DNA from: Anaerolineaceae bacterium
GTDB taxonomy: Bacteria > Chloroflexota > Anaerolineae > Anaerolineales > Anaerolineaceae
Assembly: GCA_002702705.1 (NCBI GenBank)
Contig: PABH01000029.1
Coordinates: 1 to 64,000 of the forward strand
Length of the DNA stretch: 64,000 bases
Direction of reading: 5' to 3'
In this document: piece after piece, positions 54,333 through 64,000 of the stretch
Layout: each line of letters begins with the position of its first letter
Position numbering within the stretch: the first letter of the stretch is position 1
The notes under the pieces: generated by a model
What the model was told of the DNA's origin: nothing
Seen by the model: only the letters and a program-made list of their open reading frames with translations
Databases searched by the model: none
Made by a program: the position numbers and the translations under genes

Positions 54333-54422
54333 AATTATATTGATTTATCTGTATCGCAATATCTGGTGTCAGCTTTCGAAGCTGCTCCTATTTCATGCCA
54401 TCTTTCAGGAGCAAAATATTGT

Positions 54423-54456
54423 CCCCCTGGGATAAGGGCGAGACTGTTGCTATACT
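54423..54456 (+). promoter_or_regulatory. Element promoter D (CCCCCTGGGAT box)
   Basis: CCCCCTGGGAT at 54423-54433, exactly 17 bases, then TATACT at 54451-54456. Identical to promoter A in box and -10. It drives the DNA-processing module. Confidence 0.65.
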
Positions 54457-54491
54457 GTAAATAATAAACAACCATCTTTTTTCTATCGTCA

Positions 54492-54523
54492 GCCGGACAA
54501 TTCCAACTGGAAATCTGTCCGGC
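54492..54523 (+). terminator. Leader terminator/attenuator D
   Basis: Following TCGTCA, GCCGGACA (54492-54499) and TGTCCGGC (54516-54523) pair perfectly, with an inner TTCCA/TGGAA hairpin, then ATTTTAAATT. It precedes the SSB-like gene by 25 bases. Confidence 0.65.
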
Positions 54524-54548
54524 ATTTTAAATTAATTAGGAGGTTCAA

Positions 54549-55073
54549 TTGATCAATGATTTTGTTATTGAAGGAATTGTGGTGCGCGATCCGTGGAAAT
54601 TCATGGATGACCTGTTCTTCCGGTTGGTGATCTATCGAGACAGTGATTTGCCTGCCAAGAAATTGGATCTGGAACGTGATGCAGGTGATTACATCAACGT
54701 CCGAGTCAATGGCGGAGCCAATGGGCTGATCCATATCCGACGCGGAATGCGATTGCGAGTTCACGGCTTTCTTCAGTCTCGAGATTTCCGCGAAAGCTTG
54801 GAAGAATTTATCAGCAAAGCACGGAAATCCAAAAATTGTACTGACCTGGCGGTTGATATCAAAGCATGCGATTTGAAACAAAACCAGGTATTCATTGACC
54901 GAAACGTGGTAGAGGCAGTCGCCAGGCGCATTATTGTGTTGGATGCTGCCGCACCTAACGAGAAAAAAGCCAGATCAATTGAGAGAGTTACGACTGGCAA
55001 GCACGCTGAAGCGGAAAACGATTCACGTGAGATGGAATCTACTTCTGGAGAAATTGACGCAACTGCTGAATAA
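54549..55073 (+). CDS. SSB/OB-fold-like protein, element-specific
   Basis: 174 residues from TTG 54549, with AGGAGG six bases upstream. Residues 1-110 suggest an OB-type fold (FVIEGIVVRDPWKFMDDLFF, YINVRVNGGANGLIHI, RGMRLRVHGFLQSRDFRESL). The tail is acidic (SREMESTSGEIDATAE), as in single-strand-binding proteins that recruit partners. The true SSB is at 56787, so this is a divergent second one. It opens the DNA-processing operon after leader D. Confidence 0.6.
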   Translation: MINDFVIEGIVVRDPWKFMDDLFFRLVIYRDSDLPAKKLDLERDAGDYINVRVNGGANGLIHIRRGMRLRVHGFLQSRDFRESLEEFISKARKSKNCTDLAVDIKACDLKQNQVFIDRNVVEAVARRIIVLDAAAPNEKKARSIERVTTGKHAEAENDSREMESTSGEIDATAE

Positions 55074-55175
55074 CTCATCCTATCAATAAACCGAAGGTGA
55101 GCATGGTTAATTATCTTTTTGGATTACCTGCAAAAGACCTAATCGTGTAAAAAAATTGAGAGATGGATGGGTTCA

Positions 55176-55205
55176 GACCTGAAGTGAATTCTTGATACTT
55201 CAGGG
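55176..55205 (+). repeat. Hairpin upstream of ncRNA candidate
   Basis: ACCTGAAGT and ACTTCAGGGT pair over eight or nine bases around a 11-base loop. It comes five bases before the outer stem of the RNA candidate. Confidence 0.55.
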
Positions 55206-55209
55206 TACG

Positions 55210-55316
55210 TGGAGGATCACAAGATGACGTCCGAATCCCTTGCATAAAGCAAGCTGGATTTCGAGAACTGTCATCGTAAGCTCCCATTGGTATTGGGAGC
55301 GAGTGATCCTCCTTTT
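55210..55316 (+). ncRNA. Candidate structured ncRNA with terminator
   Basis: The outer stem GGAGGATCAC (55210-55219)/GTGATCCTCC (55302-55311) is a perfect 10-base pair, followed by five T (55312-55316). Inside lie two arms. The first is ATGAC (55222-55226) with GTCAT, enclosing a CGAATCC/GGATTTCG-like stem and CTTGC/GCAAG. The second is GCTCCCA/TTGGGAGC. Together they form a three-way junction of about 102 bases. No family known to me matches. It may be an independent RNA or a leader of the Rad52 operon. Confidence 0.55.
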
Positions 55317-55655
55317 TGTTTCCGGGAGTCCCCGGATAGTGGGCTTGCACTTTAACAAACAACCTTTTCCTCCCAGGAGGCGTCATGGCGTGCTGAGAAG
55401 CAGAAAGGTTCATATTACAAGGAGAAAACAATACTGTTTGGGTGGGATGAGTCATTCATCCCACCCATATATTCTCACATCCATAGGGCTGCAAATGTCA
55501 GCGATGAAGAAAAAGTCTTCACCATTGTCGTTTTCTGCTCTGTGTTTGTTCACGGGTAGTAAATAACGTCGGAACACTCCTGGTGCTTAGCCATGAGTTG
55601 ATCTTTCGAATCGACCTTTTGTTAATCAACGTCGGATATTTCCACAAGGAGGATT

Positions 55656-56753
55656 ATGCAAAAAACACAAGACCTTACCCAAGCACAAGTTGAACGTACT
55701 GAACGTGCACAATCTGCGATTCTCGCTGGCAAGTTCCAGGTCACCCGAACCAATCCCCACCAATGGACGGTCAAAAATGGCGACAAGCTACCGTATGTAG
55801 TCTCATTGAGACCATCTCAAGGTGATTCTGAAGAGGTCAAATGGGCGTGTACCTGTATGGACTATCAGCAGCGGGGACCTCAGATTCTCTGCAAACACAT
55901 TGAAGGTGTCCGCCTTTTAGAAGCGGCGCAACCACAAATTCACATAATTCAAGAAAAGGAGAGTCAAATGAATGAAACCATCCCTTCAAATGATGGGAAC
56001 CTGAGCGACCGGCTGAGCCGCATCCTCTGGGAACTTCGCCAGCCATTGGACATGTCTCGCGTCAAACGCCGCCAAGCGCCAGGTATGGGATCCGTCCCAT
56101 ATCTGGAAGGATACGACGTTATTGATCGAGCCAACAGTATCTTCGGATTTACCTGGTCATTTGACTTGATTGGTGATCCGGTCATCGTGCGTTGGCAAAA
56201 AAAGGTGCTGATCTGGAATCAACAGGAAAAACGCAAGGTTCCTGCCCTGGATGCCAATGGGAATGTTCAGACCGAGGAAGTCGGTTTAGTGTATATCACT
56301 GGCAAAGTATCTGTCGATCTGGACGGAAAAACATACAGTCACGCCGATCTTGGTCGTTGTGTCTTCACTGGTGATACACCCGAAGCTCTTGATATGGCCT
56401 TGGCAGGTTCAGCCACAGACTGTCTGAAGCGCTGCTTCCGCCAGTTGGGTGAACAGTTCGGCAATCTGCTGTATGACAAGGAAATTGCTCAGAACGCAGG
56501 TCTTGATCAAAACCGATCCAATGGCACCTCATCTACGGCAATTCCAACTTCGAAAGCAAATTCAATGCCTCCCACCACCTCTATCGTACGCAAGTATGGG
56601 GATGGTGTCTCCGTGAATGGAAATGTCTCTGAACAGGAGGCATTTGACCAATTCAAAGAGAAAACCGGGAGAGTTCCTGCTTCAAAGGATGAATTGCGTA
56701 ATTGGCTAGCCAGTCAACGCGCCACACCGACGCCTGCATCCGTTGCAGCGTAA
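55656..56753 (+). CDS. SWIM zinc finger fused to Rad52-family recombinase
   Basis: 365 residues. An N-terminal SWIM zinc finger has C65-x-C67 and C79-x-H81 (WACTCMDYQQRGPQILCKH). From residue ~115 the Rad52/Rad22 fold follows (GYDVIDRANSIFGFTWSFDL, then GDTPEALDMALAGSATDCL, KRCFRQLGEQFGNLLYD). Rad52-like proteins anneal single strands; phage and element versions serve replication and recombination. ATG 55656 follows AAGGAGGAT. The C-terminus has a DUF-like EDQFKEKTGRVPAS tail. Confidence 0.82.
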   Translation: MQKTQDLTQAQVERTERAQSAILAGKFQVTRTNPHQWTVKNGDKLPYVVSLRPSQGDSEEVKWACTCMDYQQRGPQILCKHIEGVRLLEAAQPQIHIIQEKESQMNETIPSNDGNLSDRLSRILWELRQPLDMSRVKRRQAPGMGSVPYLEGYDVIDRANSIFGFTWSFDLIGDPVIVRWQKKVLIWNQQEKRKVPALDANGNVQTEEVGLVYITGKVSVDLDGKTYSHADLGRCVFTGDTPEALDMALAGSATDCLKRCFRQLGEQFGNLLYDKEIAQNAGLDQNRSNGTSSTAIPTSKANSMPPTTSIVRKYGDGVSVNGNVSEQEAFDQFKEKTGRVPASKDELRNWLASQRATPTPASVAA

Positions 56754-59440: not shown

Positions 59441-59475
59441 TCAGACACGCAGCTTTTAAAAACCTGCGTGTCTGA
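59441..59475 (+). repeat. Intercistronic hairpin before dnaN
   Basis: TCAGACACGCAG and CTGCGTGTCTGA pair perfectly (12 bases) around 11 bases. A processing or attenuation structure. Confidence 0.65.
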
Positions 59476-61719: not shown

Positions 61720-61939
61720 AATAAAGTCCAGCTTTCGGTTTTGTGGCGGATATAAAAAGACTACTTCATTTTACATGTGAAAGGACAGGGCATGAAACCT
61801 GGTTGCTGAAACAATTTTCATGTTTCAGGCACCTGGTTTGATGTTCTGTTGTGCAGTGCATACAGAACACATAAACGTTGGCTATTTCTTCAAAAAAACG
61901 TTGGTTATTCAATCCATATCTAATCCAAAGGAGGATCAC

Positions 61940-63007
61940 ATGAATGTATACGAAGACAAATACCTGCGCGAAAAGGTGAACCGTATTATCGCCAGGCAGA
62001 AGGAGGGCAAGATCATCATCGCTGCTTATAAGGATGGCAGTGGCTTACCTGCGAGAGAAGATCTTGGGCAGGAACTGACACGGGCAGCTTACCCATACGA
62101 TTATGCAGTTGGAAAAGCTGGTTTCCTTAACTACGATTCGGAACTCGGAGCTTACCTGTTTACTGCAAAATCGGGTGAGAAACTACCCCAAGTGTTAGCT
62201 AACTACCGAATTCTTACTCTAGGTGAAGCAATCCTCGATGTAAAGGACCGGAGTATCCATATTCAATGCGGCGAAACCAGCGTCACCTTCACCGGAGCAC
62301 AACCCTGGAAAGGTCTGTACGAAGTTCTGAAAGAGGTCAACGAAGAACTGGCTCGAGTCAATTCTGGGATTGTTGTTTGGAAGATTGTTCCGAAGGAAAG
62401 CGGGGATTCCAAATCGGGTGATCGTCTATTTCTTGAAGCGGTACCAAAGCTTCGGAACGGGCAAGCAATGGCATATGCCACCGGCTATGCCTATTACACC
62501 GATCACAACCTGGCGTATATTGGCCTTGTAGGTTACAAGACCAGCCTGGAGTCACTACGAGTGACTCTTATGTGCGGGAAATCCCTACAAATGACTCAGG
62601 ACGGCCTAAGCGATGTGTCCCTGATTCCCACTGATAAGTATGAACAAGCCTGGCAAGCCATGCCTGAATACACCAGTCATCATGTCGGGTTTGTATCTCG
62701 GCTTGCGCTTCCAGGAAAGTGGGAACCAGAAGACCTGTGTGCATATCTGCTTATTTTTCGAGGAACATCCGACCCGGGAAAGGAATTGATTCAGCTTTTC
62801 GTTGAACGAATCAAAGAAGCTCTGGAGGTGCCGATCCTGGATGAATGGTCAGTAGCCCTTTGGAAACAAGCTCGTAGCCGCACGTTGGTTCAAGATCTGG
62901 CCACAGGTGGTGATTGTATCCTTGGTGCCAGAATTGACCTGCAAGCTGACTGGAAAGAACTGTTATCCGAGTTATTAGCTCAGGAGGAAATCTCACTGAC
63001 CATCTGA
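61940..63007 (+). CDS. Large protein of unknown function
   Basis: 355 residues from ATG 61940 after GGAGGATCAC. No known family. N-terminus is charged (DKYLREKVNRIIARQKEGKI), the middle beta-rich, with no membrane helix or clear motif. The setting before the DUF6094 methylase suggests an element-specific DNA-processing or regulatory role. Confidence 0.55.
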   Translation: MNVYEDKYLREKVNRIIARQKEGKIIIAAYKDGSGLPAREDLGQELTRAAYPYDYAVGKAGFLNYDSELGAYLFTAKSGEKLPQVLANYRILTLGEAILDVKDRSIHIQCGETSVTFTGAQPWKGLYEVLKEVNEELARVNSGIVVWKIVPKESGDSKSGDRLFLEAVPKLRNGQAMAYATGYAYYTDHNLAYIGLVGYKTSLESLRVTLMCGKSLQMTQDGLSDVSLIPTDKYEQAWQAMPEYTSHHVGFVSRLALPGKWEPEDLCAYLLIFRGTSDPGKELIQLFVERIKEALEVPILDEWSVALWKQARSRTLVQDLATGGDCILGARIDLQADWKELLSELLAQEEISLTI

Positions 63008-63041
63008 TTGAACAAGTAAAACAACTCGCAACATCACCCCG

Positions 63042-63064
63042 GAGGGGGCGCTTTTCATCCCCTC
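63042..63064 (+). repeat. Intercistronic hairpin before methylase
   Basis: GAGGGG and CCCCTC pair over six bases around eleven. One of the hairpins that punctuate the operon. Confidence 0.5.
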
Positions 63065-63117
63065 AAAGGGTTGGACGCGTCTCCTGCGGGGATTTTATCT
63101 TCGTAAAGGAGTGAACA

Positions 63118-64000
63118 ATGCGTCCACCAGCAATCGAAAGAATGGGGTACTATCCCACGGATGAACCGGTTGTCGAGATCATCCGCACTTACTTGAAACC
63201 GCCTAGCGAAAGAGGGCGGTTATTTGATCCCTGCGCAGGGGAAGGAAAAGCTGCTTCTTTCTTGGGCAACGCACTCAACTGCGAAACCTGGGGCGTAGAA
63301 CTATCACCAGAACGAGCAGGAAAAGCTCAAACCGTGATGGATAAGGTTTACCAGGCTCCCTGGCAGGCTTGTGTTCTGAGTGATGAAAGCATTTCCTGGC
63401 TCTATTTGAATCCACCATATGAATTTGACCGATTTGAAGGTCAAAAACGACTGGAATGGGATTTTCTCAAGACGACCTCCTCCAAGCTGATGCGTGGCGG
63501 GCTTCTGACCTATATCATCCCACAGAAAATTCTGGGAATGATTGAAGTTGCTCGGCTTTTGGCCGGGCATTATGAAGCTATCACGGTCTATCGGTTTCCG
63601 GATGGATTGTACGAGAAATTCAAACAGGTGGTGGTGTTGGCCTCCAAGCGCAAGCTCTACCAGCTACCCACAGACAAGGAGGTTCTTTCGCTTCAAAGTC
63701 TGGCGTCGATGGACCTGGAACCTATCCAATCTGCTATTGAACCGATCTATCAACTGCTGTCTGCACCATCACGAGGTGCAAATGGCAAACCAGTTGTGTT
63801 CAAGCGAACGGATTGGGAACCGGAAGAGGTGGTTGAAGCCACAAAGGAAGCAGGTGTCCACACGACCAGTGATTGGCTTGACCTGATACATCCAACGCGT
63901 GGTTTGGCTCAACTCTCCCAACCAGTCATGCCCTTGAAGAAAGGGCATATCGCTATGCTCATGGCCTCTGGCATGATGGGCACGGTAAAGTTGACTGATG
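63118..64000 (+). CDS. DUF6094 / N6-adenine methylase-like protein (runs off window)
   Basis: 294 residues visible from ATG 63118, with AAAGGAGTGAACA before it. Methylase motif I is RGRLFDPCAGEGKAASF and motif IV WLYLNPPYEFDRF. Between them LNCETWGVELSPERAGKAQ fits the SAM pocket. NPPY is typical of adenine methylases. Such proteins are common in conjugative elements. The C-terminus lies beyond the window. Confidence 0.85.
   Translation, partial: MRPPAIERMGYYPTDEPVVEIIRTYLKPPSERGRLFDPCAGEGKAASFLGNALNCETWGVELSPERAGKAQTVMDKVYQAPWQACVLSDESISWLYLNPPYEFDRFEGQKRLEWDFLKTTSSKLMRGGLLTYIIPQKILGMIEVARLLAGHYEAITVYRFPDGLYEKFKQVVVLASKRKLYQLPTDKEVLSLQSLASMDLEPIQSAIEPIYQLLSAPSRGANGKPVVFKRTDWEPEEVVEATKEAGVHTTSDWLDLIHPTRGLAQLSQPVMPLKKGHIAMLMASGMMGTVKLTD

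Follow-up and report, generated by a model that had tools for sequence, protein, structure and literature searches.

A conserved structured region, probably a leader RNA, before the rad52-ssb-radC-dnaN operon of integrative elements from Anaerolineaceae

The DNA analyzed here, hereafter the window, is a 64,000-nt stretch of an Anaerolineaceae genome of 5.9 Mb, where it forms part of a 119,934-base contig. On its forward strand a rad52-family gene (55656–56753), whose identity as read from the letters is confirmed by a match to PF04098, opens an operon encoding Rad52, SSB, RadC, and DnaN. It is preceded on the same strand by a conserved gene of unverified family (54549–55073), found in 26 of the 30 Rad52 loci of the named genome collection: the sequence-only reading had called it SSB-like, a label that finds no backing in Pfam or NCBIfam, in any useful PDB match, or in similarity to the element’s true SSB, and the structure model of its product is of low confidence (mean pLDDT 39) and too poor for use. 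Between the stop codon of this gene and the rad52 ATG we count 582 bases (55074–55655), in line with the noncoding gap of about 580 bases described earlier. A hairpin with an AT-rich tail (GCCGGACA..TGTCCGGC, 54492–54523), terminator-like as well, stands just before the upstream gene.

The carrier of these genes is an integrative element. The same contig encodes a tyrosine recombinase (L106:15726-16847) and, as element cargo, a complete Qat defence system (QatA-D; L106:6537-11523, corresponding to G000:C31 about 66.5–71.5 kb), and in Leptolinea sp. HRD-7 (L109, L111) the corresponding region carries BREX genes (BrxC, PglZ, BrxL). Flp/Tad-type pilus genes lie to the left, and a scan of proteins covering part of the element’s genes revealed no relaxase.

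Within the gap, a three-way junction (domain B, 55211–55317, + strand) is closed by an outer stem in which ggaggatcac at 55211–55220 faces gtgatcctcc at 55303–55312 in 10 of 10 Watson-Crick pairs, with GGAGGATCAC and GTGATCCTCC as its near-invariant strands; the stem encloses some 80 nt, including two inner arms (55223–55275 and 55280–55300), and is followed directly on its 3′ side by the T-run TTTTT at 55313–55317. RNAfold returns the junction, perfect 10-base stem, two arms, and T-run where they had been noticed by eye, and assigns to 55205–55320 an energy of −51.9 kcal/mol matched by none of 200 dinucleotide shuffles (z −6.96), with both strands folding to about the same degree. When the whole window is cut into 319 tiles of 200 nt, 55201–55400 ranks second by z and 55401–55600 ninth. 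A stable stem with an adjoining U-rich tract (55303–55317), as found here and in most clades, makes the domain intrinsic-terminator-like; it is not a canonical short terminator, and a terminator scan built around short simple hairpins (loop 3–8) does not report it. Just 5′ of the junction lies domain A, the hairpin CCTGAAG..CTTCAGG (55178–55204, + strand), which had also been seen before: it is present and kept in relatives with some covariation, three of the nine pairs of its helix (helix 1) having changed on both sides in 18 distinct sequences, but its fold taken alone reaches a z of only −0.41.

Relatives of the locus were collected in several ways. Searching 101 related genomes at the DNA level turned up 15 places in 12 genomes at E ≤ 1e-10: the window, 12 others at 90–99% identity (one of them partial), and two at 72%. 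The place in G005, which starts at a contig end, was dropped for alignment A1. In the named genome collection, 30 loci matched a profile for the downstream Rad52; most come from Anaerolineaceae, and they include Levilinea, Leptolinea, Ornatilinea, Flexilinea, Bellilinea, and Longilinea as well as many MAGs, and the element’s Rad52 is carried by 23 of the 147 genomes of the family. By profile no Rad52 relative was detected among viral_contigs; none was found in the plasmid collection, and the phage collection gave one weak match. Near relatives of the element in two MAGs labelled Micrarchaeota and Bacteroidota (L082, L087) probably reflect binning errors, or possibly transfer.

Covariation among related elements had been proposed as a check on the structure, and compensatory changes beyond chance are indeed found in domain B. 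In a MAFFT alignment of 14 loci, 8 of 46 pairs have changed on both sides, and a wider search of 28 sources (L071, L086, and L093 not given) placed 19 loci above the cutoff, 18 of them distinct, with 13 pairs changed on both sides (3.8 ± 1.3 in shuffles, 0/500) and 24 such cells (5.7 ± 1.8, 0/500). In that 19-locus alignment 96.5% of cells pair, compared with at most 43.4% when the partner is slid, and none of 500 shuffles reaches its covariation score or its changed-cell count; being fitted to the structure model, the alignment leans toward structure, and the MAFFT alignment points in the same direction. The interior varies freely: in L156 the junction is built from quite different arms (z −6.98), L095 keeps it (z −6.93), and in L083, L085, and L160 a single inner hairpin takes its place. 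The outer stem, by contrast, has eight of ten pairs that never vary and two that vary on one side in the 18 distinct sequences, with one compensatory change evident by reading in L084/L085, where GGAGGAA stands opposite TTCCTCC. The form with stem and T-run occurs in the clades of the window, L078, L080/L081, L083, L084/L085, L095, L156, and L160; in L088, L090, L091, and L092 another stem without a T-run replaces B, and in L089 the T-run is broken.

Conservation continues past the T-run: with domain B in its 5′ part, a conserved leader of about 480 nt (about 55178–55655) extends between the upstream gene and the rad52-ssb-radC-dnaN operon in elements of Anaerolineaceae and one other family. 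The structure picked out from the letters is real and covers just the 5′ quarter of the conserved whole. Domain C (55347–55432, + strand), recognized by motif conservation in the alignment, comprises the single-stranded motif GCACTTTAACAAACA, a stem, and then TCATATyACAnGGAGA; across loci the 15-nt motif reads G(C/T)AC(T/C/A)TTAA(C/T)AAA(C/T)A and the segment after the stem CATAT.ACA..GGAGA. The window has a single match to the motif, against 0.01 expected, and 28 of the 29 sources examined have a looser version no more than 700 nt ahead of rad52 (L093 and L094 being omitted from the 30 Rad52 loci for this count). The one exception, L086 from Flexilinea, has a leader split by about 1.3 kb; this insertion, in Flexilinea flocculi, interrupts domain E. 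L077 has lost 77 nt across C and D, and since both the insertion and the deletion occur beside a full-length rad52, parts of the leader may be dispensable. The only exact match to the motif among viral_contigs (L105) falls within coding sequence, has no leader surrounding it, and was put down to chance. Seen as a potential riboswitch, the leader offers a highly conserved motif C, and its downstream genes, which process the DNA of a mobile element, suggest no ligand. Domain D (55439–55467, + strand) is a perfect 12-bp hairpin whose sequence differs wholly between clades while its pairing is kept, with 8–18 positions per strand across clade representatives.

Domain E (55484–55542, + strand) is a 26-position stem with internal mismatches and strong covariation, and is captured in covariance model R2. 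In 20 of the 28 listed E sequences, 16 pairs have changed on both sides (11.4 ± 1.7 in shuffles, 2/500), as have 69 cells (22.3 ± 4.1, 0/500), no shuffle out of 500 attains its covariation score, and 86% of cells pair against at most 46.7% with the partner slid. The 3′ strand of E overlaps the 5′ strand of a further hairpin, domain F (55538–55556, + strand), such that the two helices exclude each other where they overlap. Duplex energies between the E 3′ strand and the 60 nt downstream were compared with those of shuffles and favor helix F with a Fisher p of 4e-5 over 10 hand-chosen clade representatives and 3.5e-6 over all 18 sequences, which are not fully independent; in single loci the helix is weak (p 0.23 in the window, 0.39 in L157, 0.91 in L163). 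A pairing between the F loop and motif C, seen by eye in the window (GUUUGUU/AACAAAC), is not kept in other loci. Domain G (55565–55635, + strand) consists of two AACGTCGG copies, at 55565 and 55628, around a small hairpin (55577–55597): in most clades the AACG(T/C)(T/C)GG copies are spaced 62–65, 23–25, or 37 and 21 nt, the pattern is missing from L083, and a single copy is found in L085, L089, and L156. The leader ends at the ribosome-binding site AAGGAGG and the rad52 ATG (55646–55658, + strand). Sequestration of this site was considered and set aside: in predicted folds the mean unpaired probability at the first gene’s site ranges from 0.22 to 0.64, so it is partly covered only, and not consistently.

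Whether the leader acts as RNA or as DNA, and from which strand, can be approached through its wobble pairs. A cruciform in double-stranded DNA would show G.T and A.C equally often on the + strand, and folding of the complementary strand would give an A.C excess. A symmetric inverted-repeat search of the leader stems, with one or two hand-chosen sequences per clade, yields 45 G.T against 14 A.C on the + strand (nominal p 6.5e-5), and a larger, more redundant set 64 against 23, where base composition predicts a ratio of 0.96; the excess of G.U over A.C indicates that the rad52-sense strand is the one selected to fold, as RNA. Of the 12 internal gaps between the window and L081 only 1 has a length divisible by three, and all six frames show similarity in translation, two observations that together argue that the leader is not protein-coding and rule out a conserved open reading frame. 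A putative leader peptide in B (GGAGG, 8 nt, and ATG opening a seven-codon frame in the window) is likewise no general feature by reading: some loci begin it with TTG or GTG, L085 and L089 lack a start altogether, and its ends differ. Compensatory changes in the leader exceed chance, as is generally expected of a structured RNA, and its description as unassigned holds: at gathering score Rfam 15 gives no match in the whole window or in 11 homologous loci (99409 bases), and relaxed scans return chance-level matches only.

The leader is also found away from rad52. Across 396 genomes of the class, covariance model R1 returned the window’s genome only, a weak negative given that the first pass scored 8 candidates per genome. 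Model R2, built from E alone, finds matches in 28 of 147 family genomes at E ≤ 0.01 and in 14 of 301 genomes of the order at E ≤ 1e-4. Nine further family loci from the R2 search were inspected by reading. In L156, on another contig of the window’s genome (G000:C71:162000-169000), the upstream gene is present together with all of the leader starting at B, and ssb follows without rad52; in L160 the same arrangement leads into a later operon gene in place of rad52; the link to rad52 as such is accordingly not upheld. L156 represents a second, related element in this genome. In L161 and L163 a homologue of the window gene at 61940–63007 is preceded by E-F-G only, and in L157 and L158 a different gene is preceded by D-E. 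L159, where a small gene follows an E-like stem, was not used, and the matches in L162 and L164, which lie between unrelated genes and resemble ordinary hairpins, were treated as chance. Of three regions taken from the order, L165 proves to be the contig of L091, and the other two belong to one other family: L166 is a complete leader, and L167 has an E-F pair after radC.

The window itself contains a second leader of the same kind, reduced to E-F-G (61783–61906, + strand; 28.5 bits, E 1.6e-6; fold z −6.71), before a gene that starts at 61940; the mirror strand of its palindrome scores 33.8. This reduced form is shared by the window and three other loci. Two AACGTTGG copies, at 61874 and 61897, are kept in four distinct loci, and a possible helix between two AACGTTGG copies is not kept in the window’s clade. 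The gene that follows probably starts at 61940 and not at 61820, the first ATG given by the ORF finder.

Taken together, these observations lead us to favor, at a probability of roughly 0.55, domain B as the 5′ domain of a long cis-acting attenuator or switch leader RNA that controls the element’s DNA-processing operon; an attenuated, switchable leader is the simplest reading that uses all the parts. RNA polymerase arriving from upstream would synthesize hairpin A and junction B, and B with its U-run would act as an intrinsic terminator at which most transcripts stop. Those that pass would go on to form domains C to G, where the E 3′ strand could pair either with its upstream partner, giving E, or with its downstream partner, giving F: a two-state switch immediately ahead of the first ribosome-binding site. 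Since E-F-G also precedes a second operon, the choice between the two states is probably made at several operons by one shared factor (a cell signal, or a protein of the element or the host), which would keep the genes that handle single-stranded DNA quiet in the integrated state. Termination at B would not be universal, since in L088, L090, L091, and L092 the replacing stem lacks a T-run and in L089 the T-run is broken; by eye, no antiterminator helix competing with B is seen in the upstream sequences. Among the functions offered by the sequence-only reading, that of an operon leader is the best supported, as the structure heads the DNA-processing operon even without rad52 and a second operon is preceded by part of it; nothing was found in favor of a control of replication or copy number.

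As one alternative, A and B could simply be the terminator of the upstream gene, while C to G would be either a 5′ UTR with nothing unusual about its structure or an element apart, and the rad52 operon would not be attenuated: a strong stem and T-run at a gene end, a T-run kept in most clades, and the few bases that separate it from motif C in L085 all agree with this. A plain terminator, however, need have neither covarying arms nor a fixed GGAGGATCAC, eight of whose ten pairs are invariant in 18 distinct sequences that include L080, L081, and L095, loci where the upstream protein is only 61–65% identical; nor does it explain why A to G stay together and in order, and we consider this reading unlikely. 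It is considerably less probable that A-B is a stand-alone small RNA of about 110–140 nt, ending at the T-run and acting in trans through its anti-Shine-Dalgarno-like 3′ strand. The defined 3′ end and strong fold would suit such an RNA, as would an invariant strand that by reading is complementary to ribosome-binding sites, and the match between AUCCUCCUU, on the B 3′ strand, and the rad52 site AAGGAGGAT is exact for 9 nt. Yet a 10-bp stem holds that strand fast, and anything that pairs with GGAGG can be expected to complement AAGGAGG as well; just upstream no promoter is seen, and the structure always sits at an operon head. More broadly, a scan of the + strand over 54400–55800, which covers the sigma-70 type only, found no sigma-70-like promoter.

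Two further readings concern the region as a whole. It might work as folded single-stranded DNA, whether a Frpo-like leading-region promoter, a STAXI-like element, or a single-strand or transfer origin, a notion encouraged by its neighbors (Rad52, SSB, RadC, DnaN, a tyrosine recombinase, and defence cargo) and by the comparable folding of both strands. Frpo/ssi promoters likewise are folded noncoding regions before ssb-type leading genes, and according to the reports on them (PMC11541004, PMC9849209) the Frpo strand that is transferred and folds is the template strand, antisense to the genes. Here the wobble pairs, an indirect test, point the opposite way, to the sense strand; promoter boxes were not found, with no −35/−10 pair on the + strand, and no relaxase appears among the proteins scanned, and we regard a single-stranded DNA function as improbable. 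The STAXI motif is RF01728, and cmscan gave no match to it in the window or in the 11 homologous loci. In its description (PMC2864571), STAXI is a pseudoknot with UUCG loops that is repeated in tandem and lies close to ssb, antirestriction, and XerDC-integrase genes of mobile DNA, its nature as RNA or single-stranded DNA being left open; the present leader differs in being a set of different stems and not a tandem repeat, and the sole direct repeat found in it is a 14-nt pair. Least probable of all, the whole leader would be a large free-standing RNA with a function of its own, like GOLLD, ROOL, or OLE. With those RNAs, as described in PMC12286853, it shares a long multidomain architecture with covariation and, for several of them, residence in mobile elements, and its roughly 480 nt are without coding capacity. 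They stand alone, however, and the present leader, which matches none of their Rfam models, is modular, always heads an operon on the same strand, has no 3′ end before the ribosome-binding site, and recurs as E-F-G alone before another operon.

The switchable operon leader that we favor has its closest counterparts in attenuation leaders such as trp/TRAP and those under ANTAR control, which likewise combine a structured 5′ leader, a terminator-like stem with a U-run, and competing helices. It departs from them in that the terminator-like element comes first and the competing pair E/F, which has no U-run, follows it, and in that the terminator is itself a three-way junction. A bolder and distinctly more tentative proposal is that these leaders make up a novel RNA family, modular and bistable, that serves as a common control circuit in a group of integrative elements from Chloroflexota: E-F-G would stand before several operons, joined to B and C at the DNA-processing operon, so that a single factor might release the whole transfer or replication program at once, possibly by processive antitermination. 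The open literature searched, on Anaerolineae elements, on Rad52 with structured RNA, on Chloroflexi RNA candidates, and on element leaders, yielded nothing describing this leader and appears to contain no account of regulatory RNA in mobile elements of Chloroflexota. Should the reading hold, an entire family of elements would have its recombination, single-stranded-DNA-binding, and replication genes under RNA control through a reused module, and the competing E and F helices would offer a direct, mutable test of an RNA switch. Covariance models R1 and R2 could moreover serve to recognize such elements when they carry defence cargo, for example Qat or BREX.

Two other features of the window may be recorded. 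A 17-nt inverted repeat at 59441–59475 overlaps the dnaN start (59468) and could cover its start codon, and a strong fold (z −4.2) at 63001–63200, not E-like, lies before and extends into a methyltransferase gene that starts at 63118.
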